This document shows, in pieces, positions 9,066 through 23,935 of a stretch of 64,000 nucleotides of DNA. The translations under genes were made by a program, and so were the position numbers. The stretch lies in NCBI RefSeq assembly GCF_025165815.1, contig NZ_JAFFZE010000012.1, forward strand, positions 434,001 to 498,000. Direction: 5' to 3'. Positions within the stretch are counted from its first letter, which is position 1, and every line of letters begins with the position of its first letter. The stretch is from Actinophytocola gossypii. GTDB taxonomy: Bacteria > Actinomycetota > Actinomycetes > Mycobacteriales > Pseudonocardiaceae. The notes below the pieces were generated by a model. That model did no database searches. It was not told the DNA's origin and saw only the letters and a program-made list of their open reading frames with translations.

Positions 9066-9340
9066 TCACCCGAACCGGATGAACGGTGGTGTTCGACGGC
9101 GGCGCAAAAGGAGTGTTCCTGGCGTTCCGCGCCGCGCTGATGTGCCGCCGCGATTGCGACACACTGCATCACCTGGGCGGCGCTCCCCTGGCGCCCTACA
9201 CCGCAGCCTGGTCGCCAACTGGCTGGCGGTCGTCGGGGGATCAGGCCCGCCCGTGCGGGGACGACCGCGTCCGGCACCGCGTGTTCTCGGTATCCACCCG
9301 AACCCGCGGATGACGCACTTGTTCACCCGAACTGGATGAA
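9066..9340. repeat. Direct repeat pair flanking 240 bp
   Basis: The 16-bp motif CACCCGAACYGGATGA occurs at about 9067 and again at about 9324 in the same orientation. The 240 bp between them hold no convincing gene. Together with the neighbouring transposase and CBS fragments this looks like debris of an insertion or a small mobile cassette. No other feature is seen from 8910 to 9460. Confidence 0.4.
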
Positions 9341-9671: not shown

Positions 9672-10331
9672 ATGTACCTGTGTGCGACCGCCACACCGCG
9701 GTTCCACATCCCTTTCGGGATTCTCTTCGTCAGCACTCACAACACCTTCCGATCCGCGCTCGCGGAGATCCTCACCAGAAGGCTGCTCGACGACCGGCTC
9801 GGGCTCGCCGCCGCCAGCTTCGGGGTGTCGAGTGCCGGCGTCCGTGCGGTCCCCGGCGCCCCCCTGAACCCCAACCTCCACACAGCGCTCGCCGAGAACG
9901 ACATCGGTGCCGCCGCCCGTGCGTTCAGGGCGCGCCCGCTCGGGGTGGGTCCGATCGCCGAGGCGGACCTCGTCCTCACCATGGGACGGGAGAGCCATCA
10001 CGCGGTGGTCGAGCTGGCACCCCGGATGCGGGCGAAAACGTTCTACCTGCTGGGGTTCGGTCGGCTGCTCGCCCGGCCGGTCCGGGGTCCGCTGCCGATC
10101 GACCCGGTGCGGCGTGCACGCACCGCCGTGCGGATGGCTGGTCGGCGACGCGGAGCCGGTTCGGAGATCCCGCCAGGACCGGACGAGCTACCGGATCCGG
10201 TGGACCAAACGGTCGCCACGCAGCGGTACGTCGCCGAGCAGATCACCACCTTCGTCCACCGGTTGGTGGTGTTCCTGACCGCGACGGTCGGGGTGGAGCC
10301 GCAGCGGATGCGGCACGAGCCCGTCGACTGA
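9672..10331 (+). CDS. LMW protein-tyrosine-phosphatase homologue without catalytic Cys
   Basis: 219 aa, with a GGAGG site six bases before ATG. The fold of low-molecular-weight tyrosine phosphatases is readable: ILFVSTHNTFRSALAE is the P-loop region, ADLVLTMGRESHHAVVELAP the following helix pair, and LPDPVDQTVATQRYVAEQI the DP general-acid loop and final helix. Active enzymes have VCxGNxCRS at the loop; here the first Cys is Ser (AGC codon) and the second is Phe, while Arg is kept. It should therefore bind phosphate but not form the phosphocysteine. It may be a pseudophosphatase or a decaying gene. No polysaccharide genes, the usual neighbours, are nearby. Confidence 0.75.
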   Translation: MYLCATATPRFHIPFGILFVSTHNTFRSALAEILTRRLLDDRLGLAAASFGVSSAGVRAVPGAPLNPNLHTALAENDIGAAARAFRARPLGVGPIAEADLVLTMGRESHHAVVELAPRMRAKTFYLLGFGRLLARPVRGPLPIDPVRRARTAVRMAGRRRGAGSEIPPGPDELPDPVDQTVATQRYVAEQITTFVHRLVVFLTATVGVEPQRMRHEPVD

Positions 10332-10597
10332 CCACCACGGACGACGAACCTGACGCAGAAGCCGAACATCTCTCCGCGATGCATCCCGGACCCCGAAGCT
10401 GTCGAGGAGCCTGCTGACGAACGGGAGTACATCCAGCGATGGCAGAACATTCACGAGCCTCCCATGCCGCACCACCGCGGCGCGGTTCACCCTCACCAGG
10501 TGAACGTGTGGTGCCGCTGTTCCAGCACAACCCACCAGGCGCTAGACATGCTTCACGGCACGAGGACAGAGGGCGAACCAATGTGGAGGGTAACATC

Positions 10598-11347
10598 GTG
10601 CGTTGCAAGGAGCTCGTGGCGGCCATCCTCGAGTTGTCCAATGTGGACACGGAATCACTGGATGAGGAGCTGTACCTGAACGCGCTGGTGCGGCATTCGG
10701 TCATCCTGCTCCGAGCCGACGATGCCGGCGTCCTCATAGCCGACGAGGACGGGCGGTTGTCCGCGGTGGCGGCGACGTCGGAGAACGCGCTGGTGCCGAT
10801 GTTGATGCAGTTGCGCGGCGAGGATGGGCCGAGCATCGAGTCCTATCGGCGCCGGGAGCCGAGGAGCCTGCCCGACCTGCACGCCGGCGACCGTTGGAAG
10901 GCCTTCGGTAACGCGTCCCGCAAGGCGGGGTTCTCCGCGGTCCACGCGATCCCGCTGTCGCTGCGCGACGACACCCTCGGCACGCTCACGCTCTACCGCC
11001 GCCGGACCGGGCCGATCGAAGCGGGCGACGCCCTCCTGGGCGCGGCGCTCACCGGGCTGGCGACCCTGCACCTGCAGGCAGGACGGGCCCTCGCACGCTC
11101 GACGTCGCTGAACGGTCAGCTCAAGACCGCGTTGCAGACCCGAATCGTTATCGAGCAGGCGAAGGGGATCCTGGCCGAGCGACTCGAACTCGACATGGAG
11201 GGCGCCTTCGAGGCGATGCGTGCGTACGCCCGCTACCAGCGTCGTCGGCTCGACGACGTCGCCCGCGAGGTCATCTGCAACTCCCCGACCGTGGCCCGGA
11301 TCGTCAACCACTCCGCCGAGCCGACCGCGCGGGGAGGTCGCAGATGA
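10598..11347 (+). CDS. GAF and ANTAR domain protein
   Basis: 249 aa from the GTG at 10598, which has a GGAGGG site seven bases upstream. An N-terminal GAF domain (about residues 15-165; AGVLIADEDGRLSAVAATSE) is followed by a C-terminal ANTAR RNA-binding domain (about 175-230; LQTRIVIEQAKGILAERLEL and AMRAYARYQRRRL). ANTAR proteins are sensor-controlled antiterminators that bind paired hairpins in nascent RNA. The stop overlaps the start of the downstream sigma factor gene by four bases, so the two are translated together and probably act in one stress response. Confidence 0.88.
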   Translation: MRCKELVAAILELSNVDTESLDEELYLNALVRHSVILLRADDAGVLIADEDGRLSAVAATSENALVPMLMQLRGEDGPSIESYRRREPRSLPDLHAGDRWKAFGNASRKAGFSAVHAIPLSLRDDTLGTLTLYRRRTGPIEAGDALLGAALTGLATLHLQAGRALARSTSLNGQLKTALQTRIVIEQAKGILAERLELDMEGAFEAMRAYARYQRRRLDDVAREVICNSPTVARIVNHSAEPTARGGRR

Positions 11348-12048
11348 CCTCCGTCGACAGGGCGAGGCTCATTCACGAGCACATTCCCCTTGTGCACCAG
11401 CAGGTTCAGGTCTTCATCGAGCATGTGTCCCGCGACGTCGACCGCGAGGAGCTCACCTCCGCGGGTCTGCTCGCGCTGGTGAGCACGGCCAGGTCCTTCG
11501 AGCCGTGGCGTGGTGTTCCGTTCCCCCGGTACGCCGGGGCCAGGCTCTACGGCGCGCTGGTCGACGAGCTTCGGTCACTGGACGGGCCGAACCCGGCCGC
11601 GCGGCGCCAGGTCCGCCGGATGAGGTCGGCCAGGGCACGGCTGACCACCATGCTCGGCCGCAAACCCACCTCGGTCGAGCTGTCTGTCTTCGTCGGCATA
11701 TCGGTGCCCACGATGGCCACCGTGACGTGGGAGGTGTACCGCACCACCGTCGTACACCTCCAGGAGCTGGTGCCGGGCACCCTCGAGAACCTGCTGTGGG
11801 ACGAGATGCCGGGACCCGAGGAGTTCGTAGTGCTCGAGGAGCAGGTGGCCCATCTGCGCGCCGCGATCACCGCGTTGCCGCCACGGCTGCGCCTGGTCGT
11901 GGTCGAGCACTTCATCCGCGACAGGTCGATGACCTCCATCGCCCGTGACCTCGCCGTGACGAGGTCACGGGTCTCCCAGCTGTGCGCGAAGGCAGTCGGC
12001 CGGTTGCGGGACAGCCTCGCCCGGCTCATCGAGGAGCCGAGGAACTGA
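11344..12048 (+). CDS. Sigma-70 family factor, WhiG/SigF-like
   Basis: 234 aa, with regions 2, 3 and 4. Region 2 is LVHQQVQVFIEHVSRDVDRE then LTSAGLLALVSTARSFEP and FPRYAGARLYGALVDELRSL, like FliA/WhiG/SigF sigma factors. Region 4 ends the protein: PPRLRLVVVEHFIRDRSMTS followed by the helix-turn-helix SRVSQLCAKAVGRLRDSL. The ATG overlaps the stop of the GAF-ANTAR gene (ATGA). No anti-sigma gene adjoins, but a STAS protein lies at 44.6 kb. Confidence 0.88.
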   Translation: MTSVDRARLIHEHIPLVHQQVQVFIEHVSRDVDREELTSAGLLALVSTARSFEPWRGVPFPRYAGARLYGALVDELRSLDGPNPAARRQVRRMRSARARLTTMLGRKPTSVELSVFVGISVPTMATVTWEVYRTTVVHLQELVPGTLENLLWDEMPGPEEFVVLEEQVAHLRAAITALPPRLRLVVVEHFIRDRSMTSIARDLAVTRSRVSQLCAKAVGRLRDSLARLIEEPRN

Positions 12049-12079: not shown

Positions 12080-12514
12080 ATGTTCGACCACCACTACTGC
12101 CCGGACGTGGTCGCCATGCGCACCGCGTTGGAGACGCTCTCGACCGCGGTGGACGACGACCTGATCGCCCGCCAGCTCACTCACCTGAGCGTGCTGCTCC
12201 AGCGACACCCCCCGAAGTCATCGGACCGGCTCGACGTGACCTCCCGGTGGCTCGTCGCCAAGCTGGAGGCCCTGCGGGACCTGGTGATGGCCCGGCGGTC
12301 ACCCCGGCTCGTCCACGTGGTGAACGACCTGGCTCACGAGCTGCTGCTCGCCCTCGACGACAACACACGGCGGTGGCACCCGCAGCCACCGCCGTGCTCC
12401 ATCTCCGGCGACCTTGACATGGATGCCACCACGCCGGGGCTCGCCATCACCATCCCCGGCGTCGGCCCCTCGGATCGGGCCCTGGAGCGCGGACCGCGGC
12501 ACGCGCGAAGGTGA
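12080..12514 (+). CDS. Hypothetical protein, 144 aa
   Basis: A helical, soluble protein following the sigma factor gene by 31 bp with an AAAGG before ATG, so likely the third gene of that operon. The first 95 residues are predicted helices rich in Leu and Asp (VAMRTALETLSTAVDDDLIA); the tail from residue 105 is Pro/Gly-rich. I recognise no family. A regulatory partner of the sigma factor is possible but unsupported. Confidence 0.55.
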   Translation: MFDHHYCPDVVAMRTALETLSTAVDDDLIARQLTHLSVLLQRHPPKSSDRLDVTSRWLVAKLEALRDLVMARRSPRLVHVVNDLAHELLLALDDNTRRWHPQPPPCSISGDLDMDATTPGLAITIPGVGPSDRALERGPRHARR

Positions 12515-12807
12515 GTTGACAGTCCTCGGCCGAACGGATGGGCCGTGACCGCGACCCCCAGAAGTCGATCCGGTGAATACGAAAAAGGGGCCGCTCGCGG
12601 CCATCTGCGGACTTCGTGATGGCCACCCCTTCCAAGTAGCGAAACAAACAGGAAAGTTGTCGAACCAGATATGGGCTAGCCTCGTACGCGGCCGGTCGAT
12701 GCGCACGCCAGAATCCGGTTGACACACTCGCCGGTACCAGGTCGAAAACCGCCGTCCCGGCGAGGACACACCGCGCCAAACGTGGACCGCTGGGTCCCCC
12801 TGCGGCC

Positions 12808-13319
12808 CGTCTGCTGTGGAACTTCCCCGACGCCGAGACCGTGACCCTCACCGGCGGCGCCCAGTTCCAGGGCAGCATCCTGACCGGCAACCCCGACAGC
12901 ATGACGACCGTGACCATGCCCGGCATCGCCGGTCGGTTCCTCACCGCCGGCTCGCTCACCCAGACCTCGCCGCCCGGGGGTGGGGCCAGGAGTTCCACGC
13001 CCACCCCTTCGAGGGCGACCTCCCTGCCTGCGGGACCGAGCCACCGACGACCACCACCACGACCACGACCACGACCAGCGAACCGTCCACGGGCGGCGAG
13101 ACGCCAACCGAGCCCACGGGCACGGAGCCGAGCCCTCCCTCCTGCGTGACCACAGCCGACGACGACGAGGAGGAGTGCGCGGTCGGCACCGGCGACAGCG
13201 AGACCTGGCTGCCGAGCACCGGCGTCGGGGCCGGCCCGCTGGTCGGGCTCGGCGCCCTGCTACTCGCCAGTGGCACCCTGCTCGCCGTGCTCGCCCGCCG
13301 GCATGCCAAACGTCCATGA
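12808..13319 (+). pseudogene. Truncated, frameshifted choice-of-anchor-A surface protein
   Basis: This is a decayed copy of the 3' third of the intact gene at 18493-19839. It opens mid-gene with [20 protein letters not shown] and continues through [16 protein letters not shown]; near 12975-12985 the frame shifts relative to the intact copy, after which [13 protein letters not shown], a Thr-rich spacer, and the anchor (WLPSTGVG, a hydrophobic helix, RRHAKRP) follow in another frame. About 280 N-terminal codons, including the signal peptide, are missing. The LPSTG motif shows the ancestor was sortase-anchored. From 12515 to 12807 I see no gene. Confidence 0.75.
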
Positions 13320-13814
13320 CGAAAGGGCCTCCGCTTGCCCGCCCAGTGCGGTGGCCAAGGACGTTCACCGTGTCTCGCGACGGCCCAGACACCCTGGCGG
13401 GCATTCCGAACAGGGCGCCAGGTGGCGGTGACGTTTGCCGCACCGCCACGCGGGTCGTCGCGCGGGCCGGTGGGCGTTGTGCCCGCAGGCGCGCTGGGCG
13501 AAGACCTTCGCGGGCCCGCATGGCCGCGGTCCCGCCCTCCCCGGACCGGCTCGGGCGGCGGTTCCATCCCGTACGGGACGACCTGGCTCCGGCGACGTCG
13601 CGACCTGGCACCCGGCCGCGGCACGGTGGACGGCGGGTACGCACGGGTGAGGACGTCCAGCGCACGAAACGGAGGCAGCGGCCGGCGGCCGCGAAAATGA
13701 TGGGGCACTCGCGGCCACCGGCCGGCTTCACGAATCCGCCCGCCGGTTTCCCGGATCGTGAAGCACAGCAGGAACATTGTCAGGCCGCAAACCCGCGCGC
13801 CTCATCCGGGGCGG
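13320..13814. other. Gene-free spacer before first LuxR regulator
   Basis: No coding frame here has a plausible start, ribosome site and protein-like composition on either strand. The last 70 bases resemble the region before the second LuxR regulator: both share AAGCACAGCnGGAACATTGT (about 13760 and 21145), showing the duplication includes upstream control DNA. Confidence 0.5.
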
Positions 13815-13840
13815 GTGAATGCGCACCGGTGTGCCTTCAC
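13815..13840. promoter_or_regulatory. Palindrome upstream of first LuxR gene
   Basis: A 26-bp near-perfect palindrome, outer arms GTGAA and TTCAC around a CACCGGTG core, with only two mismatched base pairs. It is followed by TCATTTGGG. The same outer arms followed by TCATTCGGG occur upstream of the paralogous LuxR gene (21198-21224) at a similar distance from the conserved start of the protein. Conservation in both copies argues for a binding site, perhaps of the LuxR proteins themselves. Confidence 0.55.
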
Positions 13841-14013
13841 TCATTTGGGTTCCCACCACTTATCCGGGCCGACCGTGTCCTAACCTCGGAGAGCGTGGTC
13901 GGGAATGCTGGGGATAGACATCAAGCGCCAGTACCGGGTTGGAAAACCTCCGTGCCGCCGTTGCCGGCCGGCCGGGTGGAAAGATCCCGTCTCACTGACG
14001 TGCTCAAGCAAAC

Positions 14014-16539
14014 ATGTCCGGCGAGGAGGAAACCCGTTGGCCGAGGGTGGTGTTGGTGTGCGCGCCGCCGGGGTTCGGTAAGACGACGCTGTTGGCCGCG
14101 GCCGTGCGCCGGTGCCGCCGCGAGGGCTTCGCGACGGCGTGGGTGAACGTCGACGAGCACGACAACGACCCGTTCGTGTTGTGGTCGGCCGTTCTCACCG
14201 CTCTGGAGAGCGCGGGCGTCCTCGACGGCGCACAACCGGAGCCCTGCCCGCCGGAACCCGGTGAGGAGGAGCGCTTCGTCACCGCGTTGCGCGAGGCGAT
14301 CGACCGTCAGCGACGCGAGGTGTGGTTGGTTCTCGACGACGTCCAACGGCTGCACGAGGACGACGTCCTGAACGGGCTGGAGCTGTTGCTGGCCAACCTG
14401 CCCAAGCGCCTCCACGTCGTCATCAGCACCCGTGTCGCCGAGCCCGTACCACTGCGCCGGCTGCGCCTCGCCGGCATTCTCCGGGAGGTGCGGGCAATCG
14501 AGCTCTGCTTCACCGAGGCCGAGACGGCTGCCCTGCTACGCGGCCACGGTGTGACGCTGACGCAGCCCGACCTCGCCCGCCTGATGGTGCGCACTGACGG
14601 CTGGCCCGCCATCGTTCGGTTGGCCGCGATGGCTCTGGCCGCGTCGGACGACTACATCGCGACCATCGACTCGTTCGTCGAAACCGACCGCGCGGTGGCG
14701 GACTACCTCGTGGGCGAGGTGCTCTCGAAGCTCCCCGCCGACGTTCAGGAGTTTCTGTTCCGCACGAGCGTCTGCGAGTGCGTCACCGTCGAGCTCGCCG
14801 TCGAGCTGACCGGACGGGACGACGCGGGCGCACTGCTGGAACGGCTCGAGCGCGGCAACACGCTGGTGTCCAGGTGCTCGCCGCACAGCGAATGGTTTCG
14901 GTACCACTCGCTGCTGCTGGGCTACCTGCGCATGGCCCTGCGGTCCCGTTCACTGGCGACCGTGACCCAGCTGCACCGCGTCGCCGCGGACTGGTTCGTG
15001 AGGCAGGGCGACGCGCTCGCCGCGCTGCCGCACGCGATCGGCGTCGGCGACCACGACCTGATGGCGGACCTCGTCGTCCAGTACGGGCCCGCGGTCGTCC
15101 TCGGTGGCCAGACGCGGACCCTGCGTCGGCTGAGCAGGAAGCTGCCGCGGGCGGTGGTGGAACGACCAGTCGTGCGCGCCATGCTCGCGATCGCCGAGCT
15201 GTCGACCGGCGACCGCTACCTGGCCGAGGAACGGCTCGCCAAGCTGTCCGCGGGCTTTCGGGACACCGACGACCCGGTGGTCCGCGACCTCTCGCTGGTG
15301 GCGCTGACGCAGCACGCGCGGTTGACCGGCCGGCTGTCTCCGCGGGTGGAAGAACTGGACGCCCGCCTCGACCACATCGAGGACACGGACCTGCGCATGC
15401 TCGCACTCATCAACCGCGGCACGGTGCTGTTCTGGCTCGGCCACCTCCAGCGTGCCCAGGGCGACCTGGAACGCGCGTTGGACCTGGCGAGGGAACGGGG
15501 CTACAGCCACGCGGGCGCGCACTGCCTGAGCCACCTGTCGGCGGTCGCCGGCGCCGCGAACGACATCGACACCATGGCGCGGGTGGCGAACGAGGCCATC
15601 GGGTTCGCCCACGAGCACGGCGTGGGCGCCAACCCCAGCACGAGCATCGCCCACGCCGCGGCCGCGTGGGCGGCCTACCAGTCGCTCGACGACGAGACCG
15701 CCCGCGCGGAGGCACGGACGGCCGCCGCACTCGCCCCGGCGAGCGGTGACCGGACCGTCGAGCTGTGCGCGCGGTCCGTGGCGGCTATCGCCGCTTCGAC
15801 CGAGCACGCGTACGACGCCCTGCTGCGGCTGCGCGAGATCTGGGGCGCGCTGGGCCGCAGCGAGCGGCTCCAGACGTCCATGGTGGCCATCGTCGGCGTC
15901 ACCGAGCAGAAGCTGGCATTGCGGCTCAGCAGGTCGGACTGGGCCGCCGAGGTCCCCCACCGGGCGTCGATGTGGATTGCCGGCAGCGGCGAGCTCCTGT
16001 TCATGCGCGCCCGCGTGCACGCCTACCACGGCCACACCACGACCGCGCGAGCCCAGCTGGACAAGATCACGTGCGGACTGGCCCGCTGCGTGGCGAGCAA
16101 CACCGAGATCGAGGCCCACGTGCTGGTCGCGTCGCTGGCCGAACGGGCCGGCGACGAGCAGACCGCGCGCACCCAGCTGCTCGCCGGCCTGGAGAAGGCC
16201 GAGCCTGGCCACGTCCTGCGCCCGTTCGTCGACACCGGACGTGACCTGCGGGCGCTCCTGGCTCGCCAGGTGGGCCGACTCGGCCAGCTCGACACGTTCG
16301 CCGCCGAGGTCCTGGAGGCGATGCCCGCCACACCCCAGGGGACTGGTGCGGAGCTCAGCCCCCGCGAGGCGCGGCTGCTGCTCGAACTACCGTCGCTGAG
16401 CACGACCGAGGAGATCGCCAGCACCATGTACGTCTCGGTGAACACGGTGAAGACGCACCTGCGCAGCATCTACCGCAAGCTCGGGGTCTCGAACCGGCGG
16501 GAGGCCGTATTCGTTGCGCGGCAGCAAGGTCTGCTCTGA
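14014..16539 (+). CDS. LuxR family regulator, MalT-like (copy 1, 5' frameshift)
   Basis: An 841-aa large ATP-binding LuxR regulator. Walker A is APPGFGKTTLLAA, Walker B VWLVLDDVQRL, then winged-helix and tetratricopeptide-like helices, and a C-terminal LuxR helix-turn-helix (LSPREARLLLELPSLSTTEE, then VSVNTVKTHLRSIYRKLGV). Compared with its paralogue at 21239-23935 it lacks one base near 14010-14040. The conserved N-terminal segment (VPPLPAGRVERSRL) lies upstream at about 13895-14030 in a different frame. Either translation begins at ATG 14014, which has no ribosome site, or the gene is inactivated, or the base loss is a sequencing error. MalT-type proteins activate transcription on binding ATP and an inducer. 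Confidence 0.8.
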   Translation: MSGEEETRWPRVVLVCAPPGFGKTTLLAAAVRRCRREGFATAWVNVDEHDNDPFVLWSAVLTALESAGVLDGAQPEPCPPEPGEEERFVTALREAIDRQRREVWLVLDDVQRLHEDDVLNGLELLLANLPKRLHVVISTRVAEPVPLRRLRLAGILREVRAIELCFTEAETAALLRGHGVTLTQPDLARLMVRTDGWPAIVRLAAMALAASDDYIATIDSFVETDRAVADYLVGEVLSKLPADVQEFLFRTSVCECVTVELAVELTGRDDAGALLERLERGNTLVSRCSPHSEWFRYHSLLLGYLRMALRSRSLATVTQLHRVAADWFVRQGDALAALPHAIGVGDHDLMADLVVQYGPAVVLGGQTRTLRRLSRKLPRAVVERPVVRAMLAIAELSTGDRYLAEERLAKLSAGFRDTDDPVVRDLSLVALTQHARLTGRLSPRVEELDARLDHIEDTDLRMLALINRGTVLFWLGHLQRAQGDLERALDLARERGYSHAGAHCLSHLSAVAGAANDIDTMARVANEAIGFAHEHGVGANPSTSIAHAAAAWAAYQSLDDETARAEARTAAALAPASGDRTVELCARSVAAIAASTEHAYDALLRLREIWGALGRSERLQTSMVAIVGVTEQKLALRLSRSDWAAEVPHRASMWIAGSGELLFMRARVHAYHGHTTTARAQLDKITCGLARCVASNTEIEAHVLVASLAERAGDEQTARTQLLAGLEKAEPGHVLRPFVDTGRDLRALLARQVGRLGQLDTFAAEVLEAMPATPQGTGAELSPREARLLLELPSLSTTEEIASTMYVSVNTVKTHLRSIYRKLGVSNRREAVFVARQQGLL

Positions 16540-16579
16540 GCGCGCGGAGGCCACCCACCCGGGGTGTGGCATCCGCCTG

Positions 16580-16915
16580 TCAGGACGCGTTGTCGACCAC
16601 GGCCGCGCAGGTGTCGCACGGGGTGGGGCGGGCCTGGTCGGCCTCGTCCGTCCGGAGCTTGCCGACGAGCAACTCGTGTGGCGTGAACCGGCGTGTGGCG
16701 GCTTGCGCGTGTGACTCCCAGTCCTCGGCCTGGTGTTCGAAGGCCTCGACGGCCGTGCAGACGGCGGCCGCCAGCCACCACGGCAGTTCGTTGTCCTTCC
16801 CGAGGGCCCGCCACGCGTTCGCCACGTCACGGGTAACGGCGACGAAGTCCTCGTTCGGTTCGCCGTACTTCTGGTAGGCGTCCTCCCAGGCGGTCACCAG
16901 ATCCGAGATAGTCAC
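16580..16915 (-). CDS. Small helical protein paired with LuxR module (copy 1)
   Basis: 111 aa. The start is the GTG at 16915, chosen because the decayed paralogue at 19845-20121 aligns exactly there (V-T-I-S-D-L-V-T-A-W against M-R-S-P-E-L-A-K-A-W), with AAAGGACGG upstream in both. The conserved core is WEDAYQKYGE, then AVTRDVANAWRALG, LPWWLAAAVCTAVEAFEHQ and AEDWESH. It ends with a CDTC pair that could bind a metal. I know no family name. It is convergent with the LuxR gene, 41 bp away. Being retained beside both LuxR and surface-protein copies suggests a role in that module. Confidence 0.65.
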   Translation of the reverse strand: MTISDLVTAWEDAYQKYGEPNEDFVAVTRDVANAWRALGKDNELPWWLAAAVCTAVEAFEHQAEDWESHAQAATRRFTPHELLVGKLRTDEADQARPTPCDTCAAVVDNAS

Positions 16916-16959
16916 GCCGTCCCCGTCCTTTCCGTAAGGCATGCCGTGCACGTTCCTGA

Positions 16960-17620
16960 AAGCGCGGACATCAAGTCAGCATCTTTCCGACGGGGTCGAA
17001 CCGTGTCGTCCTCCGTTGCGGGTGAGCTCACGGCGTCCCTTCCGAGGAGGCAAGCACTTCGACATCGTCGGGGTCAGTCACGAGAAGAACCCCTTCGCCG
17101 GACTCGAACCGACGTCAAGCCGAACGGCTGGATCTAGTACGAGGGCAAACAACGACTCGGCGTCCACCGCGACCTCGTAGGCGAGATGACGGCGGCCGCG
17201 AACGCAGGCTGGTGCGACAGCCAGGAGCCCGGATTCCTTCGTCCCGTGCCCTCCTTCTGTCCGTGAATGCGGCAGCGCCTTGGTCCGCTCGGTGAACGGG
17301 TGGCCGGTCTCCGTGGTCGGCGACACGTGCTTGGTGTCGAGGCGGAGCGGCCGGGTCAGTCGCGGGAGAACTGGCGGATGATGAGGTCCCCGGAGATTCG
17401 GCAGATGCGTTGGGCGACGTCGGTGCCGCGCGGATAGTGGTCGGCCGGACAACGCCAGCCACAGTGACCGCCACGGACCGATGCGGCGCGGGATGCCGAC
17501 TGTGCCACCGGAATGAGTCCATCTGTACCCGGGCAACCGGAACGCCGGGCCGGGCCGCGACCCGACCGGCGAAAGCCGCCAGCTCGAACCTCACGGCCGT
17601 AGGCGTTGCGCCGTTCCGAC
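16960..17620. other. Gene-free spacer
   Basis: I find no coding frame that looks protein-like, no ribosome site paired with a start, and no RNA gene in this 660-bp stretch. Frames on both strands are Arg/Pro/Ser-rich, as expected for non-coding high-GC DNA. Confidence 0.4.
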
Positions 17621-17625
17621 CGGTT

Positions 17626-17930
17626 CTACGTCAATCGCAGCAGGTTTCCTTCCCGGTGCAGGAGGACGGGTGGGTGGGCCGCCGAGAGCGGACGTCGCCC
17701 GCGACGGCTCTGCCATCGACGGAACTCGGAGCCACCGAGGAGCGTGGAGTAGGCGAACGACTCGAGTTCGAGCGCCGCCGGCACGTCCAGCCCGACACCC
17801 GCGCGGAGAACGTGCGCCAGCACGATCGCGGCCTGCGGCCACTCCTCCGCGATGTCCCGCAACGCGGCCGCGTCGGCGACCGGGTCGTCACACGCGACGA
17901 ACTCCCGGGTGGGTAGGGCATATCCCGCGG
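17626..17930 (-). pseudogene. Enoyl-CoA hydratase-like protein remnant
   Basis: The minus-strand frame reads [20 protein letters not shown], then WPQAAIVLAHVLRAG, DVPAALELESFAYSTLLGGS and EFRRWQ. It then gives PPVLLHREGNLLRLT and a stop. This is the inter-domain part of a two-part enoyl-CoA hydratase/isomerase family protein common in actinobacteria; the crotonase core that should follow is absent, replaced by a stop, and the upstream part is unrecognisable to about 18200. A clear 3'-truncated remnant. Confidence 0.55.
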
Positions 17931-18429
17931 GACCAGCGTGAGGTCGAGCATCGGTAACATCCACACGGCGCACCACGGTCCAGGTGCGTACGCGGTCGCC
18001 TCGGGCGAACCGGTGACCGCAGCGAATGTCGAGCATGTGTCGGGCATACGCCCAGCCGAGATCGAGCCCGACGCCGGGTGGATCGCATTCACGTTCCTCC
18101 CTGGAGGCGGGGGCGAGGTGGCCTCTTCGACTTCCGCTACGACCGAGACCGCGCGTTCGAACTCCTATGCCGGGACAGACAGCCAGCTTCCACGGCACGT
18201 TCGGAACGCGTGCTTCCCGGGGCGAAGTTCGCCGAGGCGTTCTGACTCCTGCCGCGTCGGCAAGATCGTGCTCGGCCTGGCCCTGCCGCAGCCGCTACGG
18301 CGGACAGTTCCCGGGCTGATCGACTCACCGCCGAGCACGAGGACGAGGAGCGGAACCCATGGCACTTCGGCCGGAGGGCCGACGTCTTTCGTTGCCCGGA
18401 CCGGCGAGAGGTCGTGTCACCGTTCGACC

Positions 18430-18449
18430 AATAGGCCATTCGGCCTATT
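18430..18449. promoter_or_regulatory. Inverted repeat upstream of the surface-protein gene
   Basis: Perfect 8-bp arms AATAGGCC and GGCCTATT around a four-base loop, ending 43 bp before the GTG start of the choice-of-anchor-A gene. Lack of a T-run and position before a start favour an operator over a terminator. A short ORF-like stretch upstream ends at a TAG just inside it (18431-18433 region), but I could not identify that stretch. Confidence 0.45.
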
Positions 18450-18492
18450 CTGTTACTCCAAGGAGGGTGTATATCCACAGCGGGAGGAAGTT

Positions 18493-19839
18493 GTGCGAAT
18501 TGGTTGTAGGAGTTTGGTCAGACGCGCTCTGGTCCCGGCCGCGGCCGTCCTACTGGTCGCGGTGGCCTTCGGGTCGACCGCGGTGGCCGACCCGTTGCCC
18601 GGCGGGCTCGGGCCGTGCGTGCCCGGCGACTGCCCGGACCCGTTCCCACCGGTGAACAACGGCCCCTTCGCCGGGCGGGACAACGGGATCAACGTGTTCG
18701 TCGGGAGCGACATGCTCGTGCGCGGAGGGGCGGCCGAGGCGGAAGGGCGCGTCGTCGTGCTGGGGTCGTTCGACCTGGCGAAGGACGCCGGCGGATCGGC
18801 GCTCTACAACGTCGGTGTCGCGGGGGTCGGCTCGCGAGTGCCACCGCCGGACGGGGCGGACTTCCTCACCGCCGGCGGCGACATCACCGTCGCTCCCGGA
18901 CAACGGCTGGACGCGGTGGGCGACTCCGGGGGCGGCGTCGTCCGGCACGCGGGCACCGCTACCGGGGAGATCGTCGGGACCGCGATCCAGGACACCGGCG
19001 CGGCCACGCCCTACCTGTCGTTGCGTGACGAACTGACGAGCGCGAGCGACTGCTACGCCCGGGTTGACGGCGAACCGCGGGAACCGACCGGCACCGCGAC
19101 CAACCTGGGCGCCGAGACGGTCTTCACGGGTGACGGCGCCTCGGAACTCCAGGTGTTCAACGTCGACTTCGACCTCGCCACGCCAGCCGGGGGCACGCAG
19201 GGCATCGTCTTCGAGAACATCCCCGAGGGCGCCACCGTGCTGGTCAACCTGACCGGCCCCGAGCGCACCATCAACACCTATGCCGGCAGCTTCGACGACA
19301 CCAACCCGTTCAACCAGCTCCGCGACCGTCTCCTGTGGAACTTCCCGGACGCGTCGACCGTGACCCTCACCGGGGGCGCCCAATTCCAGGGCACCACCCT
19401 GGTCGGCGACCAGGACAGCACCGCCACGGTCACCATGCCCGGCATCGCCGGGCGGTTTTACACCACCGGCTCCCTGATCCACACCTCACCCGCGTCGGGC
19501 GGCGGAGGCCAGGAGTTCCACGCGTACCCGTTCAACGGCGACCTCCCCGACTGTGAAGGCGAAGAACCCCCGCCCACCACGACGACCACGACCGAGCCGA
19601 CGACCACGACCGAGTCGACGACCACCACCACGTCGGACGGCACGAGCCCGTCGGAACCGACCTCGACGGTGTGCCCCACGACCGACCCGTCATGTGCCGA
19701 AGGTTCCGGCGGCGGCTCCGACCCGACTCTGCCGACGACCGGCTTTGACGCAACCGCCCTCACCGGCATCGGCGCTCTGCTGCTGCTCGTCGGCACGCTG
19801 CTCGTGATGCTCAACCGCCGACGGACACGGAAAACCTGA
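18493..19839 (+). CDS. Choice-of-anchor A family surface protein with LPXTG anchor
   Basis: 448 aa from GTG 18493, which follows GGAGG by five bases. A signal peptide ([19 protein letters not shown], cleavage near AVA-DP) leads into the choice-of-anchor-A domain: [35 protein letters not shown], and later [15 protein letters not shown] with a glycine-rich end. A Thr/Glu spacer of about 60 residues and a sortase signal LPTTG, transmembrane helix and RRRTRK tail close the protein. It should be covalently attached to the wall by a sortase. Such domains are thought to be adhesive or structural. A 3' fragment of a second copy lies at 12808-13319. Confidence 0.88.
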
Positions 19840-19844
19840 TCCTC

Positions 19845-20121
19845 CAAGAGGCGGCCGCAGACCCGCCCGTGTTCCAGGTCGAGCCGCTCGCCACCGGGGC
19901 GGGCGGCCGACCGGAACTCCGCCCAGTCCTCCACCTGGTGCTCGAACGCCTCCGCGGCCGAGAACACCGCGGCCCGCAACCACCACGGCAGCCGGGTGCT
20001 CTCCGCGAGCGAACGCCAGGCCTTCGCCACCTCCTGGGAGGAGGCCACGATGTCCTGGCCCTGTGCTTCGCCCCAGGCGCGGTAGGCTCTCCCACGCCTT
20101 CGCCAGTTCTGGGGAACGCAT
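19845..20121 (-). pseudogene. Small helical protein, copy 2, frameshifted
   Basis: Paralogue of the 16580-16915 protein. It begins at ATG 20121 behind AAAGGACGGTT and reads MRSPELAKAWE; then, compared with copy 1, two bases are missing at about 20088, and the rest (AYRAWGEAQGQDIVASSQEV, LPWWLRAAVFSAAEAFEHQ, VEDWAEFRSAAR) is in another frame. The frame then runs on without the expected stop toward the end of the surface-protein gene. Translation of the initial frame gives unrelated sequence, so the gene is presumably dead. Confidence 0.65.
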
Positions 20122-20199
20122 AACCGTCCTTTCATTCTTGGTACACAAGCGTTTCGCTTCATCCCGAGGGCGAGGCCAGGGGCCCCGCCGCCGGGCAGG

Positions 20200-20999
20200 T
20201 CAGCTCCGCGCGCCCAGCCCTGTGACGGTACCGGCCGAACGAGCGGTGGCGTGCAGCTCGTCGTTGGCTTCGGCCAGCATGGTGGCGATGGTGTCGCAGT
20301 CCGGACAGGACGCGAGGTGGCTCACGATCAGCCGTGTTCGCCGCACCGACGAGCTGCCGCGGGCCCACATCCCGAGCTGTCGGCGGATCACCAGACATCC
20401 GATGGCGCAGGCGTACGGGACCTGAGCCTGCAGGTACGCCTGCCGAAGTCCCTCCCGTGCCCGCATGGCCAGAGCAGCCACCCCGTTCGGGAGATACCGA
20501 GCCGCGGCGCCAGCTCCGCCGGTGACCTGCTCTCCACCTCCGTGTGCCAGAGCACCATGCGCCACCGGGACGGAAGCGTGCGGAACGCCGACCGGATCTG
20601 CCGGATCTCCCACTGACGGAGCGCCTTCTCGTCGATCGCGGCCTCACCGTCTCGAAATGACACCATCATCTGCGGGTGCGCGCCGTACAAGTCGACCCGA
20701 CTCCGACGACGCAGGAGCCCGATGCCCAGATGGCGCACCGTCGTCATCAGATAGGGACCGAGATTCCGGCGCGGACCGGCGCCATTGCGAATCGCGACCA
20801 GTATCAGCGTGAACGCCTCCACGACCAGGTCCTGCTCGTCCGCGGGCTGCCAAGTCCACTTTCGGGCGACTACACGTGCGGATGCGACATAGCGGCTGAA
20901 CAGCACGCCATATGCGTCGCGGTCTCCCGCCCGAACGGCGTCGAGCAACAATGCGTCCGGGAGGCCGTCGACGGCAGTCGACGGCGGTGGACGGGTCAT
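20200..20999 (-). pseudogene. ECF-type sigma factor with one-base frameshift
   Basis: The first 170 codons from 20999 encode a sigma-70 region 2 (LLDAVRAGDRDAYGVLFSRY, ending PYLMTTVRHLGIGLLRRRS) and the start of region 4 (FRTLPSRWRMVLWHTEVES, ELAPRLGIS). Near 20490 one base is missing; the expected recognition helix NGVAALAMRAREGLRQAY and a Cys-containing C-terminal extension (HLASCPDCD) continue in another frame to 20200. Actinobacterial sigma factors with such zinc-binding tails are a known type. The gene sits between the surface protein and LuxR copy 2. A sequencing error at 20490 would restore a 266-residue protein. Confidence 0.65.
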
Positions 21000-21197
21000 C
21001 TGGTTCTCGCTCCGTGATGGCGTGCTCGGAAGGCGTCATCGCTGGACAGCTCACGGATCGGCGGGGGGACCGGCGGACGCACGACTGGGGGCACTGCGGC
21101 TTGCGGTGGCCTCGCGACCGATCCCCTCGTCTCCGAGGTCGCGAAGCACAGCCGGAACATTGTCAGTTCGGCCACGAAGAGACCTCACCCACCCCGG

Positions 21198-21224
21198 GTG
21201 AATGCTCATGATAAACCCATTCAC
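21198..21224. promoter_or_regulatory. Inverted repeat upstream of second LuxR gene
   Basis: Arms GTGAATG and CATTCAC separated by 13 bases, followed by TCATTCGGGG. It corresponds to the palindrome 13815-13840 before LuxR copy 1. The inner sequence differs completely while the outer arms and the flanking TCATT are kept, which is what selection on a dimer-binding site would leave. It ends 15 bp before ATG 21239 and 66 bp before the alternative GTG 21290. Confidence 0.55.
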
Positions 21225-21238
21225 TCATTCGGGGGAAC

Positions 21239-23935
21239 ATGTTGTTGATCCGCCCACTTCCGCACCAACAATGTCTACTCTCAGCAGTCGTGGCGGGGGA
21301 CCCAAACGACAGACTCCGCGCTCCAACGCCCGAGCCGAAAACAGCCGTACCACCGCTGCCGGCCGGCTGGGTGGAGCGCGCCCGGTTGCATGACGCGCTG
21401 GGGAGAAGACCCGTCGACGTGGAGGAAACACGCCCACCGAAAGTGGTGTTGGTCCGTGCGCCGCCGGGATTCGGCAAGACCACGCTGCTCGCCGCCTGGG
21501 TTCGACTGCGTCGGCGCCTCGGCGATGCGACCGCGTGGGTCAGCATCGACGAGCACGACAACGATCCGTTCGTGCTGTGGTCGGCGGTCCTCACGGCACT
21601 CGAGAAGGACGCGCTCACCGCCGACGACACACGCGCGCTCCATCCACCGGAGCAGGGCCAGGAGGAACGTTTCGTCACCGCGCTCCGCGAGGCCACCGAC
21701 CGCCGGGAACGCGACGTCTGGCTGGTTCTGGACGACGTCCAACGGCTGCGGGAACGCGACGTCCTGCACGGAATGGAGGTACTGCTGACCAACCTTCCGG
21801 TGCGGCTGCACGTCATCATCAGCACCCGGTTCGGTGAGCCCGCGGCGCTGCGTCGACTGCGGATCGCCGGCGAGCTGCGAGAGGTGAAAGTCAACGACCT
21901 CGCCTTCACCGACGCGGAGGCCGCGACCGTCCTGAGCGGGTACGGCGTAACGCTGGCCCACTCCGACCTCACCCGCCTGATGGCGCGTACGGAAGGCTGG
22001 CCCGCCATCGTCCGGCTCGCCGCGTTGGCGCTGTCCGAGTCGGACGACCACATCGCCACGATCGACTCGTTCGTCGAGACCGACCGCGCGGTGGCCGACT
22101 ACCTCGTCGGCGAGGTGCTCTCGAACCTCCCCACCGACATGCGCGAGTTCCTCCTACGCACGAGCATCTGCGAACGACTCACCGTCGAACTCGCCAGCGA
22201 ACTGACCGGCCGGGACGACGCCGGCGTCCTGCTGGAACACCTCGAACGGGTCGACACGCTGGTGTCCAGATGCTCCGCGCACAGCGAGTGGTTCCGGTAC
22301 CACTCGCTACTCCTGAACTACCTCCGGATGGCGCTGCGGTCCCGCTCACTGGCCACCGTGACCGCGTTGCACCGCGTCGCGGCGGGCTGGTTCGTGCGAC
22401 AGGGTGACGCACTGGCCGCGCTGCCACACGCGATGAGCGCGGGCGACAACGATCTGATGGCGGAGCTCGTCGTCCGGTTCGGCCCCGCGATCGTCCTCGG
22501 TGGGCAGATGTGGACCCTGCGGCGGCTGGGCAGGATGCTCCCGTGCGCGACGGCACGACGGCCCGCGGTCTGCGCCATGCTCGCGGTCGCCGAGCTGTCG
22601 ACCGGGGACCGGTACACCGCCGAGGAACGTCTGGCCTGGCTCACCGCCGATTCGCGGACCATGCAGGACCCGGGAGTGTGCGATCTGTACCTCCTGGCGC
22701 TGACCCAGTTGGCGCGGTTGACCGGCCAGCTGTCCCCGGAGGTCGACGAGCTGAGCAACCGGCTCGACGGCATCGTGGACGTGGACCTGCGCATGCTCGC
22801 GCTCGTCAACCGCGGCACGGTGCTGTTCTGGCTCGGCCGGCTCGAACGTGCCCACGCCGACCTGTCGCGCGCACTCGACCTGGCGACCGCGCGGGGGTAC
22901 GTCTACGCGATCACGCACTGCCTGAGCCACCTGGCGGCGGTCGCCGGGGCCAGGAGCGACTTGGACACGATGGCCCGGGTGGCACACGAGGCCGTCGGAT
23001 TCGCGCACGAGAGCGGCATCGACGTCAGCCCAAGCACGTGCATCGCGCACGCCGCCGCCGCGTGGGCCGCGTACCAGGCGCTCGACGACGAGACCGCGCT
23101 GACGGAGGCGCGGACCGCCGCCGACCTGGCCGGCGCGAGCGACGACCGGACCACCGCACTGTGTGCCCGGTCGATGGCGGCGATAGCAAGGTCCATCGAG
23201 CAGCCGCACGACGCCGTGCTGCGGCTGCGGGAGTGCTGGGGAGCGCTGCCCCGGGATGAGCCGCTGCAGCCAGCCGCGGTCGCGATCGTCGGCGTGGCCG
23301 AGCAGAAGATCGCACTGCGAATCGGCCGGGCGGAGTGGGCCGCCGAGGTCCCCGAGCGGGCGTCGGCGTGGATCGCCGGCAGCGGCGAGCTGCTGTTCCT
23401 GCGCGCACGGGTGCACGCCTACCACGGCCATTCCACCACCGCACGAGCCCTGCTCGACAAGATCACGAGCGACCGGGTCCGGTGCCTGGTCACCAACACC
23501 GAGATCGAGACCCACCTGCTGGTCGCGTCGCTCGCCGAGCGCTCCGGTGACACGCACACCGCGCGCGCCCAGCTGATCGCCGCGCTGGCGAAGGCCCAAC
23601 CCGGCCGGGTCATGCGCCCGTTTCTCGATACCGGCCGGAACCTGCGAGCGCTCCTGTCACACCAGGTCGGCCGGCTGGGCCAGCTCGACCCGTTCGCCGC
23701 GGAGGTTCTGGCGGCGGCCCCCGCCACCCGCCCGGGAACGGGCGCGGAGCTCAGCCCGCGGGAGGCGCAGCTGCTGATGGAGCTGCCGTCACTGAGCACG
23801 ACCGAGGAGATCGCGAACGAGATGTACGTGTCGGTCAACACGGTGAAGACCCACCTACGCAGCATCTACCGCAAGCTGGGGGTCGCCACCCGCCGCGAGG
23901 CGGTGCTCGTCGCGCGCCAACAGGGCTTACTCTGA
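21239..23935 (+). CDS. LuxR family regulator, MalT-like (copy 2, intact)
   Basis: 898 aa. N-terminal AAA-type ATPase with Walker A RAPPGFGKTTLLAAW and Walker B VWLVLDDVQRLRE, arginine-finger-like region (VIISTRFGEPAALRRLR), about 500 residues of helical repeats, and C-terminal LuxR helix-turn-helix (LSPREAQLLMELPSLSTTEE, VSVNTVKTHLRSIYRKLGV). It is complete, unlike copy 1. ATG 21239 has GGGGG close by; similarity between copies begins only at GTG 21290, so the true start may be there. The protein probably activates transcription in response to an unknown ligand; the intact surface-protein gene and itself are candidate targets. Confidence 0.87.
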   Translation: MLLIRPLPHQQCLLSAVVAGDPNDRLRAPTPEPKTAVPPLPAGWVERARLHDALGRRPVDVEETRPPKVVLVRAPPGFGKTTLLAAWVRLRRRLGDATAWVSIDEHDNDPFVLWSAVLTALEKDALTADDTRALHPPEQGQEERFVTALREATDRRERDVWLVLDDVQRLRERDVLHGMEVLLTNLPVRLHVIISTRFGEPAALRRLRIAGELREVKVNDLAFTDAEAATVLSGYGVTLAHSDLTRLMARTEGWPAIVRLAALALSESDDHIATIDSFVETDRAVADYLVGEVLSNLPTDMREFLLRTSICERLTVELASELTGRDDAGVLLEHLERVDTLVSRCSAHSEWFRYHSLLLNYLRMALRSRSLATVTALHRVAAGWFVRQGDALAALPHAMSAGDNDLMAELVVRFGPAIVLGGQMWTLRRLGRMLPCATARRPAVCAMLAVAELSTGDRYTAEERLAWLTADSRTMQDPGVCDLYLLALTQLARLTGQLSPEVDELSNRLDGIVDVDLRMLALVNRGTVLFWLGRLERAHADLSRALDLATARGYVYAITHCLSHLAAVAGARSDLDTMARVAHEAVGFAHESGIDVSPSTCIAHAAAAWAAYQALDDETALTEARTAADLAGASDDRTTALCARSMAAIARSIEQPHDAVLRLRECWGALPRDEPLQPAAVAIVGVAEQKIALRIGRAEWAAEVPERASAWIAGSGELLFLRARVHAYHGHSTTARALLDKITSDRVRCLVTNTEIETHLLVASLAERSGDTHTARAQLIAALAKAQPGRVMRPFLDTGRNLRALLSHQVGRLGQLDPFAAEVLAAAPATRPGTGAELSPREAQLLMELPSLSTTEEIANEMYVSVNTVKTHLRSIYRKLGVATRREAVLVARQQGLL

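Follow-up and report, generated by a model that had tools for sequence, protein, structure and literature searches.

The stretch analysed here (the window, 64 kb in total) is part of contig C47 of a Pseudonocardiaceae actinobacterium with a source genome of 7.38 Mb in 53 contigs. It carries a duplicated block with two genes for MalT-like LuxR regulators (LuxR1 and LuxR2), in which genes for a choice-of-anchor-A surface protein (A1 and A2), a small protein (S1 and S2) and an ECF sigma factor (sigma1 and sigma2) likewise occur twice. According to a DNA repeat search and alignment, positions 12807-16539 (~3.7 kb) match positions 19326-23935 (~4.6 kb), with a DNA identity of 71-84% across the repeat pieces D1, D2 and D4-D7 of the duplicated genes, which is far above chance. 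An earlier reading of this DNA (the original prediction) had described three families occurring twice within 11 kb, together with a duplication of the DNA upstream of the LuxR genes; the doubling of A, LuxR and S holds, with the ECF sigma factor as a fourth family, and the duplicated upstream DNA is confirmed by both the search and the alignment. In the fuller copy 2, the order is A2 (18493-19839, plus strand), S2 (19821-20122, minus strand), sigma2 (20159-20999, minus strand) and LuxR2 (21239-23935, plus strand). Copy 1 contains A1 (12808-13313, plus strand), which is truncated and frameshifted, a sigma remnant of ~170 bp (13351-13524, minus strand; repeat D6) and then LuxR1 (14014-16539, plus strand). 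The intact S1 (16580-16915, minus strand) is placed 3' of LuxR1, where the order of copy 2 would predict another position, and since S2 lies between A2 and sigma2, the block is not one clean tandem copy. The broken members are A1, S2 and both ECF sigma copies. The positions of the A fragment, the intact A and the LuxR pair are as predicted, and so are those of the intact S and of its broken copy, for both of which the strand has to be corrected to minus. The genes were all called with a home-made program, so their starts are approximate.

LuxR2 is an intact regulator of the LAL type, with an N-terminal AAA/STAND ATPase domain including a Walker A motif, a MalT-type TPR region and a C-terminal GerE helix-turn-helix. 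The corresponding Pfam profiles matched over their cut-offs (AAA_16, 1.1e-9; TPR_MalT, 1.1e-11, barely, with 45.1 vs. 45 bits; GerE, 4.5e-12), and the MalT model NF003420 had its best stretch at 43-436, under its cut-off. These profile calls are for LuxR2; the Walker A sequence PPGFGKTT is present in both copies. In LuxR1, which is 74% identical to LuxR2 at the protein level, the frame is shifted only over roughly the N-terminal 60 residues, and its 841 codons contain no stop. The two genes differ by a dN of 0.17 and a dS of 0.50 (dN/dS about 0.35), the dN/dS between LuxR1 and the homologue in the relative G060 is about 0.28, and private residues, at which the other three sequences agree, number 34 in LuxR1 and 41 in LuxR2. 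LuxR is kept in two copies under purifying selection, and LuxR1 is as constrained as LuxR2; that LuxR1 is a pseudogene is ruled out by its open frame, the dN/dS and the private-residue counts. The prediction of one copy in decay is therefore wrong for LuxR1.

A LuxR tree pairs LuxR1 with LuxR2 as sisters (95/93) and places the gene of G060 (same family) next to them. Since LuxR1, LuxR2 and the G060 LuxR are nearly equidistant (74-77% identity), the duplication dates from about the time of the split from the genus of G060. A sequence within the LuxR2 frame, CTACTCTCAGCAGTCGTGGCGGGGG (21239-21300), resembles by eye the DNA upstream or at the start of the LuxR genes of G060 and G045, and the true LuxR2 start may therefore lie downstream of 21239.

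LuxR, S, A and ECF sigma factors were searched in 249 genomes, with up to three LuxR candidates scored per genome, and the 20 best-scoring LuxR places outside the window, which come from 18 genomes of relatives (Pseudonocardiaceae), are referred to as LuxR loci. From 12 upstream regions, namely those of both window copies and of ten of these 20 loci, we derived the palindrome TCAYCC-N5-GGRTGA (Box1). Upstream of LuxR1, Box1 (13802-13818) is followed by a second element, Box2 (13837-13849, TCACTCATTTGGG), and the same pair is found upstream of LuxR2 (21185-21201 and 21221-21233, with TCACTCATTCGGG as Box2). Box2, TCACTCATTYGGG, occurs at only two places in the genome, before LuxR1 and LuxR2. 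A Box1-like site with one mismatch lies ~94 bp upstream of the start of S1 (17009-17025), another one, also with one mismatch, upstream of a GAF-ANTAR regulator gene (10487-10503; similar in L043, L050 and L051), and two sites without mismatches precede a phosphatase-like gene (9066-9082 and 9323-9339). With at most one mismatch, the window contains six Box1 sites, all between 9.0 and 21.2 kb, a number reached in none of 100 shuffles. The strict form TCAYCC-N5-GGGTGA has six distinct places in the 7.38 Mb, four of them in this locus; the other two are C15:138980 and C28:220557 of the source genome (G000; L199 and L200), and the one on C28 overlaps the end of a reading frame according to the rough gene calls. 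A scan for sigma-70 promoters between 12.0 and 24.1 kb found none.

Within 600 nt upstream of LuxR, eight of the 20 relative loci have an exact Box1 and 19 have one if a single mismatch is allowed, while 119 permuted palindromes on the same loci reached a mean of 0.48 and a maximum of 14, and the inside-gene control gave 0/20. In further loci it was present upstream in eight of 11 (permuted mean 0.32; 3/119 reach eight). Moreover, all six gaps between LuxR and a divergent Wzc-like kinase gene contain it with at most one mismatch, and with the window included it lies upstream of GAF-ANTAR in four of nine loci at up to one mismatch and in seven of nine at up to two. The first form of Box1 that was tested lay upstream in 10 of the 12 source regions and, within 450 nt, in none of ten less similar loci. 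In the less similar LAL loci L056 and L058-L062, the LuxR of which are 37-40% identical, there are three to four Box1-like sites each (at most one mismatch), some of them between other divergent genes, which we take to encode a family-15-like glycoside hydrolase and small membrane proteins. Box1 may hence serve a wider LAL family.

Box1 could also belong to a regulator other than LuxR, such as a dimeric repressor whose gene lies at another place, with LuxR as a target rather than the binder, and the two strict sites elsewhere in the genome (C15 and C28) as well as the Box1-like sites before other genes in the less similar LAL loci would fit this explanation. We nevertheless regard it as rather unlikely, as Box1 follows the LAL gene across genera (the 19 of 20 loci given above) and as four of the six strict places of the genome belong to this locus.

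The second constituent that can be linked to LuxR is the small protein. S lies directly 3' of LuxR in three of the 20 LuxR loci, all three in genomes of the genus g27. Both S and LuxR are listed in 22 other genomes and are adjacent in three of them (distances judged by eye, as were those between A and LuxR). In an unrooted S tree of 25 rows, the five LuxR-linked S, i.e., S1, the in-frame piece of S2 and the three from genus g27, stand on one side of a branch supported at 97/95; the sister relation of S1 and S2 (94/79) is below the tool's mark for strong support. The original prediction had proposed counting how often the families adjoin in other genomes as its own test, and with respect to LuxR and S the prediction holds in part, given the three genomes out of 22 in which they adjoin, the grouping of the LuxR-linked S and the Box1-like site upstream of S1.

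Other members of the S family reside in a different setting. Of 68 other S places listed, 20, mostly the best-scoring ones, were inspected, and in 16 of them FtsK/TraB and a pSAM2-type RepSA, which make up the backbone of actinomycete integrative and conjugative elements (AICEs), are both near S, the remaining four lacking this combination; the same pair of genes was found in none of the 20 LuxR loci. A model built from four LuxR-linked S had matches in 107 of 390 genomes. These four necessarily score highest, which is why their lead over the others (next score 78.5 bits) was not used as evidence; the in-frame part of S2, with 72.9 bits, falls within the range of the S that are not linked to LuxR. 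S1 had no match in Pfam or PHROGs and in NCBIfam only a chance-level one to ribosomal protein S1 (E 0.029). Five S relatives were searched against Pfam, where only L158 had weak matches (best MbeD_MobD, E 0.0014, under the cut-off), and there was no match for five relatives in PHROGs and for one in NCBIfam. A sequence search of S against solved structures returned a single chance-level match (E 0.58). The predicted structure of S1 has three helices (residues 3-17, 22-41 and 46-74) and a loose tail, with a mean pLDDT of 67 and values of ~71-84 over the first 70 residues, and this model matched no entry of the PDB at E <= 0.001 (best E 0.73). S2 is frameshifted and has lost its C-terminus.

Judged from gene neighbourhoods, the recurring companions of LuxR are genes that lie upstream of the interval reported originally, between 9672 and 12514, all on the plus strand. 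The first (9672-10331) encodes a homologue of low-molecular-weight protein tyrosine phosphatases (Pfam LMWPc, E 1.8e-14), the second (10439-11347, with an uncertain start, perhaps at 10583) a GAF-ANTAR regulator (Pfam ANTAR, 1.1e-16) and the third (11344-12048) a sigma factor of the FliA/WhiG/SigB type, with Pfam Sigma70_r4 and r2 over cut-off and TIGR02479 (8.4e-36) under it. They are followed by the gene for a small protein X (12080-12514), a homologue of a protein in G233 that looks secreted and is encoded after the sigma factor there, with a tblastn match of E 9.5e-14 in L050. Among the 20 LuxR loci, GAF-ANTAR was found in eight, a Wzc-like kinase in six, a Wzb-like phosphatase in five, PglD in four and a SigB-type sigma factor in two. 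All six Wzc-like kinases, which were named by TIGR01007, are encoded divergently from LuxR in exopolysaccharide operons. An exopolysaccharide locus of this kind would have a chain-length tyrosine autokinase beside the regulator, and such a kinase is absent from the window; in the source genome no clear Wzc-like kinase was found, the single weak match having an E of 8.6e-4. From this we infer that the polysaccharide genes were lost here.

What is left of such an operon in the window may be the phosphatase homologue. Its loop reads FVSTHNTFRS and is devoid of the cysteine of the CX5R loop, which we take to be the motif of active low-molecular-weight protein tyrosine phosphatases and on which we base calling the catalytic cysteine absent. 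This residue is kept in three of five relatives (present in L044, L045 and L049; absent in L050 and L051, as in the window). The loci without the cysteine (window, L050 and L051) all have a GAF-ANTAR gene with a SigB-type sigma factor gene immediately after it, and in the DNA scanned of those with the cysteine no such sigma factor was seen. The cysteine-less homologue is possibly a pseudo-enzyme that turned into a regulator.

A2 and the ECF sigma factor present a different picture. A2 is an LPXTG-type wall protein that contains the choice-of-anchor-A domain (TIGR04215, 1.3e-51; 175.8 bits vs. a cut-off of 29) and a wall anchor (Gram_pos_anchor, 5.2e-4; 20.3 vs. 20), with a signal-like N-terminus and the motif LPTTG recognised by eye. 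A1 is a C-terminal fragment which lacks the part corresponding to residues 1-278 of A2 and matches residues 279-337 and 328-447 in two frames, separated by one frameshift. TIGR04215 was found in 44 of the 249 genomes. A search of the 20 LuxR loci for A beside LuxR returned nothing at E <= 1e-3 and only chance-level matches at E <= 10, and in 20 other genomes with both A and a listed LuxR, the closest pair on one contig is ~570 kb apart (G116). This spacing and the 0/20 rule out A as a conserved neighbour of LuxR. The start of A2 is preceded by a palindrome of its own (18430-18449, AATAGGCC-ATTC-GGCCTATT), which differs from Box1; neither Box1 nor Box2 lies upstream of A2, no Box1 site with up to two mismatches being present between 17025 and its start, and 30 scanned of 58 other listed A places had neither an exact Box1 nor the 18430 palindrome upstream. 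Given the different palindrome and the missing conserved linkage, the simplest view is that A2 came along with the duplication as a passenger, and it may be useful in its own right as a wall adhesin.

The ECF sigma factor fares similarly. In sigma2 (TIGR02937, 1.2e-11), a frameshift in region 4 is seen against an uninterrupted homologue from the same genus (L125), and sigma1 is a remnant recognised by tblastn to the C-terminal part of sigma2 (E 2.5e-4, against a small set of loci), so that neither copy has the intact regions 2 and 4 of a functional ECF sigma factor. Related sigma factors are present in at least 218 of the 249 genomes, among the matches listed, and none lies beside LuxR in the 20 LuxR loci at E <= 1e-3 (chance-level matches only at E <= 10), which rules out the ECF sigma factor as a conserved neighbour within these loci.

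Taken together, we favour, with moderate confidence, the reading that the block is a tandem-duplicated and orphaned regulatory locus in which LuxR, S, GAF-ANTAR and the SigB-type sigma factor form a circuit, with A and the ECF sigma factor as passengers. LAL regulators oligomerise upon binding of ATP and an effector and contact DNA via GerE. LuxR would accordingly be an effector-gated STAND ATPase that binds Box1, its candidate operator, and regulates its own expression, and in relatives it would switch both the polysaccharide operon and the genes for GAF-ANTAR and the sigma factor. The circuit in the window would have lost its polysaccharide output and represent an orphaned LAL regulator of the exopolysaccharide type, and A and the ECF sigma factor would have been carried along in the duplicated DNA rather than being conserved members. 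As S adjoins LuxR in the same orientation in relatives, and has a similar operator here, it would most simply be a modulator of LuxR, recruited from a family whose members elsewhere are mainly found on AICEs. One could go further and tentatively imagine, as a possibility that we rate below even, that an AICE-borne S was captured by a chromosomal LAL regulator as a dedicated partner that modulates either the STAND ATPase or its DNA binding, and is co-regulated via Box1; if this is true, S members on AICEs would act likewise on a regulator of the host or of the element.

Several observations weigh against this circuit. The Wzc-type operon is found in only six of the 20 loci, and in the closest relative, G060, there is no kinase in the 18 kb fetched. 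With up to two mismatches the window has 20 Box1 sites vs. 10.95 expected, the Box1 beside LuxR2 faces the broken sigma gene, and the protein that binds Box1 could be one other than LuxR. Only 11 further loci lie outside the derivation of Box1, five of them with near-identical sites (-415 to -539), and since ten of the 20 loci had been used to find it, the independent support falls short of what these numbers suggest. LuxR and S are linked only patchily, in three of 20 loci and, besides the window, in a single genus, and the S of the relatives are on the LuxR strand, whereas S1 and LuxR1 are transcribed towards each other. Mapped onto the LuxR tree, linkage to S takes three changes, and S was therefore probably lost or moved more than once. 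Finally, the intact state of A2 may reflect some selection for keeping it.

The original prediction itself was that a ligand-sensing LuxR controls the sortase-anchored A, with S and a sigma factor as partners, and that the intact mosaic is the working set. Of this unit, the link of LuxR and S stands in part, and A and the ECF sigma factor drop out. The similar divergence of the A pair (76%, for the first A1 piece) and the LuxR pair (74%), the intact A2 with its signal-like N-terminus and LPTTG, and the S-LuxR linkage in three relatives would be in line with it; however, not one of the 20 other genomes with both A and LuxR has them side by side, neither Box1 nor Box2 precedes A2, no exact Box1 was found at the 30 of 58 other A places scanned, and the ECF sigma factor is broken in both copies. 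That an intact mosaic survives does not by itself speak for A as a member of the unit, and we regard the unit in its full form as improbable.

Just as little weight can be given to the view that the block is chance debris, left by a single old tandem duplication of neighbouring genes that are functionally unconnected. Such debris could explain that A1, S2 and both sigma factors are broken or truncated within ~8 kb and that A and the ECF sigma factor are not near LuxR in relatives, but it leaves unexplained the S-LuxR linkage and the grouping of the LuxR-linked S, the palindrome common to LuxR1, LuxR2, S1 and GAF-ANTAR, and the presence of GAF-ANTAR near LuxR in eight of 20 loci. That the frameshifts in A1, LuxR1, S2 and sigma2 are assembly or sequencing errors would agree with the single shift and the good homology on both sides in LuxR1, S2 and sigma2, but is similarly doubtful, as single-base errors cannot explain the loss of the first 278 residues of A1 or the mere remnant of sigma1, and as, among ten other genes scanned in the window, nine align with their family profiles almost in full and the tenth, acetate kinase, from position 84 of its profile onwards, a weak control given that the ten were picked from frames already called open.

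With regard to known systems, the circuit resembles LAL/MalT-like LuxR regulators in the AAA-STAND, MalT-type TPR and GerE domains of LuxR2 and differs from them by its GAF-ANTAR and sigma neighbours, by the polysaccharide operon in six of 20 relatives and by S in some genomes. The loci of those six relatives are like Wzc/Wzb-type exopolysaccharide loci, with a divergent autokinase, PglD (NeuD/PglB family) and a Wzb-like phosphatase, whereas the window keeps only the cysteine-less phosphatase homologue, in a genome with no clear kinase. S homologues near FtsK/TraB and RepSA (16/20 loci) are reminiscent of pSAM2-like AICEs; the window and the 20 LuxR loci differ in that TraB and RepSA are absent, and judged by these two genes the locus does not qualify as an AICE. 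A2 shares with the choice-of-anchor-A family (TIGR04215/PF20597) the domain over cut-off and the LPXTG-type C-terminus, and differs in its position beside a LAL regulator, found only here, and in its palindrome, not seen at 30 other A loci. In place of the predicted unit, the analysis points to one made up of LuxR, S, GAF-ANTAR and sigma and connected by Box1, within a known kind of regulator locus. Among open-licence literature, judged on titles and the beginnings of abstracts, this arrangement was not found described. To our knowledge, the ligand, DNA target or modulation is known for few LAL members, and the locus offers a candidate operator that recurs across genera, a possible small partner protein whose relatives are carried by mobile elements, and what is probably a regulator that outlasted its polysaccharide operon.

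Two minor observations concern the DNA between the genes. S1 and A2 are separated by ~1.5 kb of apparently non-coding debris (17000-18480), in which a reading frame of 136 aa (17626-18036, minus strand) had no Pfam match. Between the two exact Box1 sites upstream of the phosphatase homologue, at 9240-9275, lies a lone GC-rich hairpin-like element, CCCGCCCGTGCGGGGACGACCG, of which a simple pattern scan found one copy and which resembles a type I-E CRISPR repeat.

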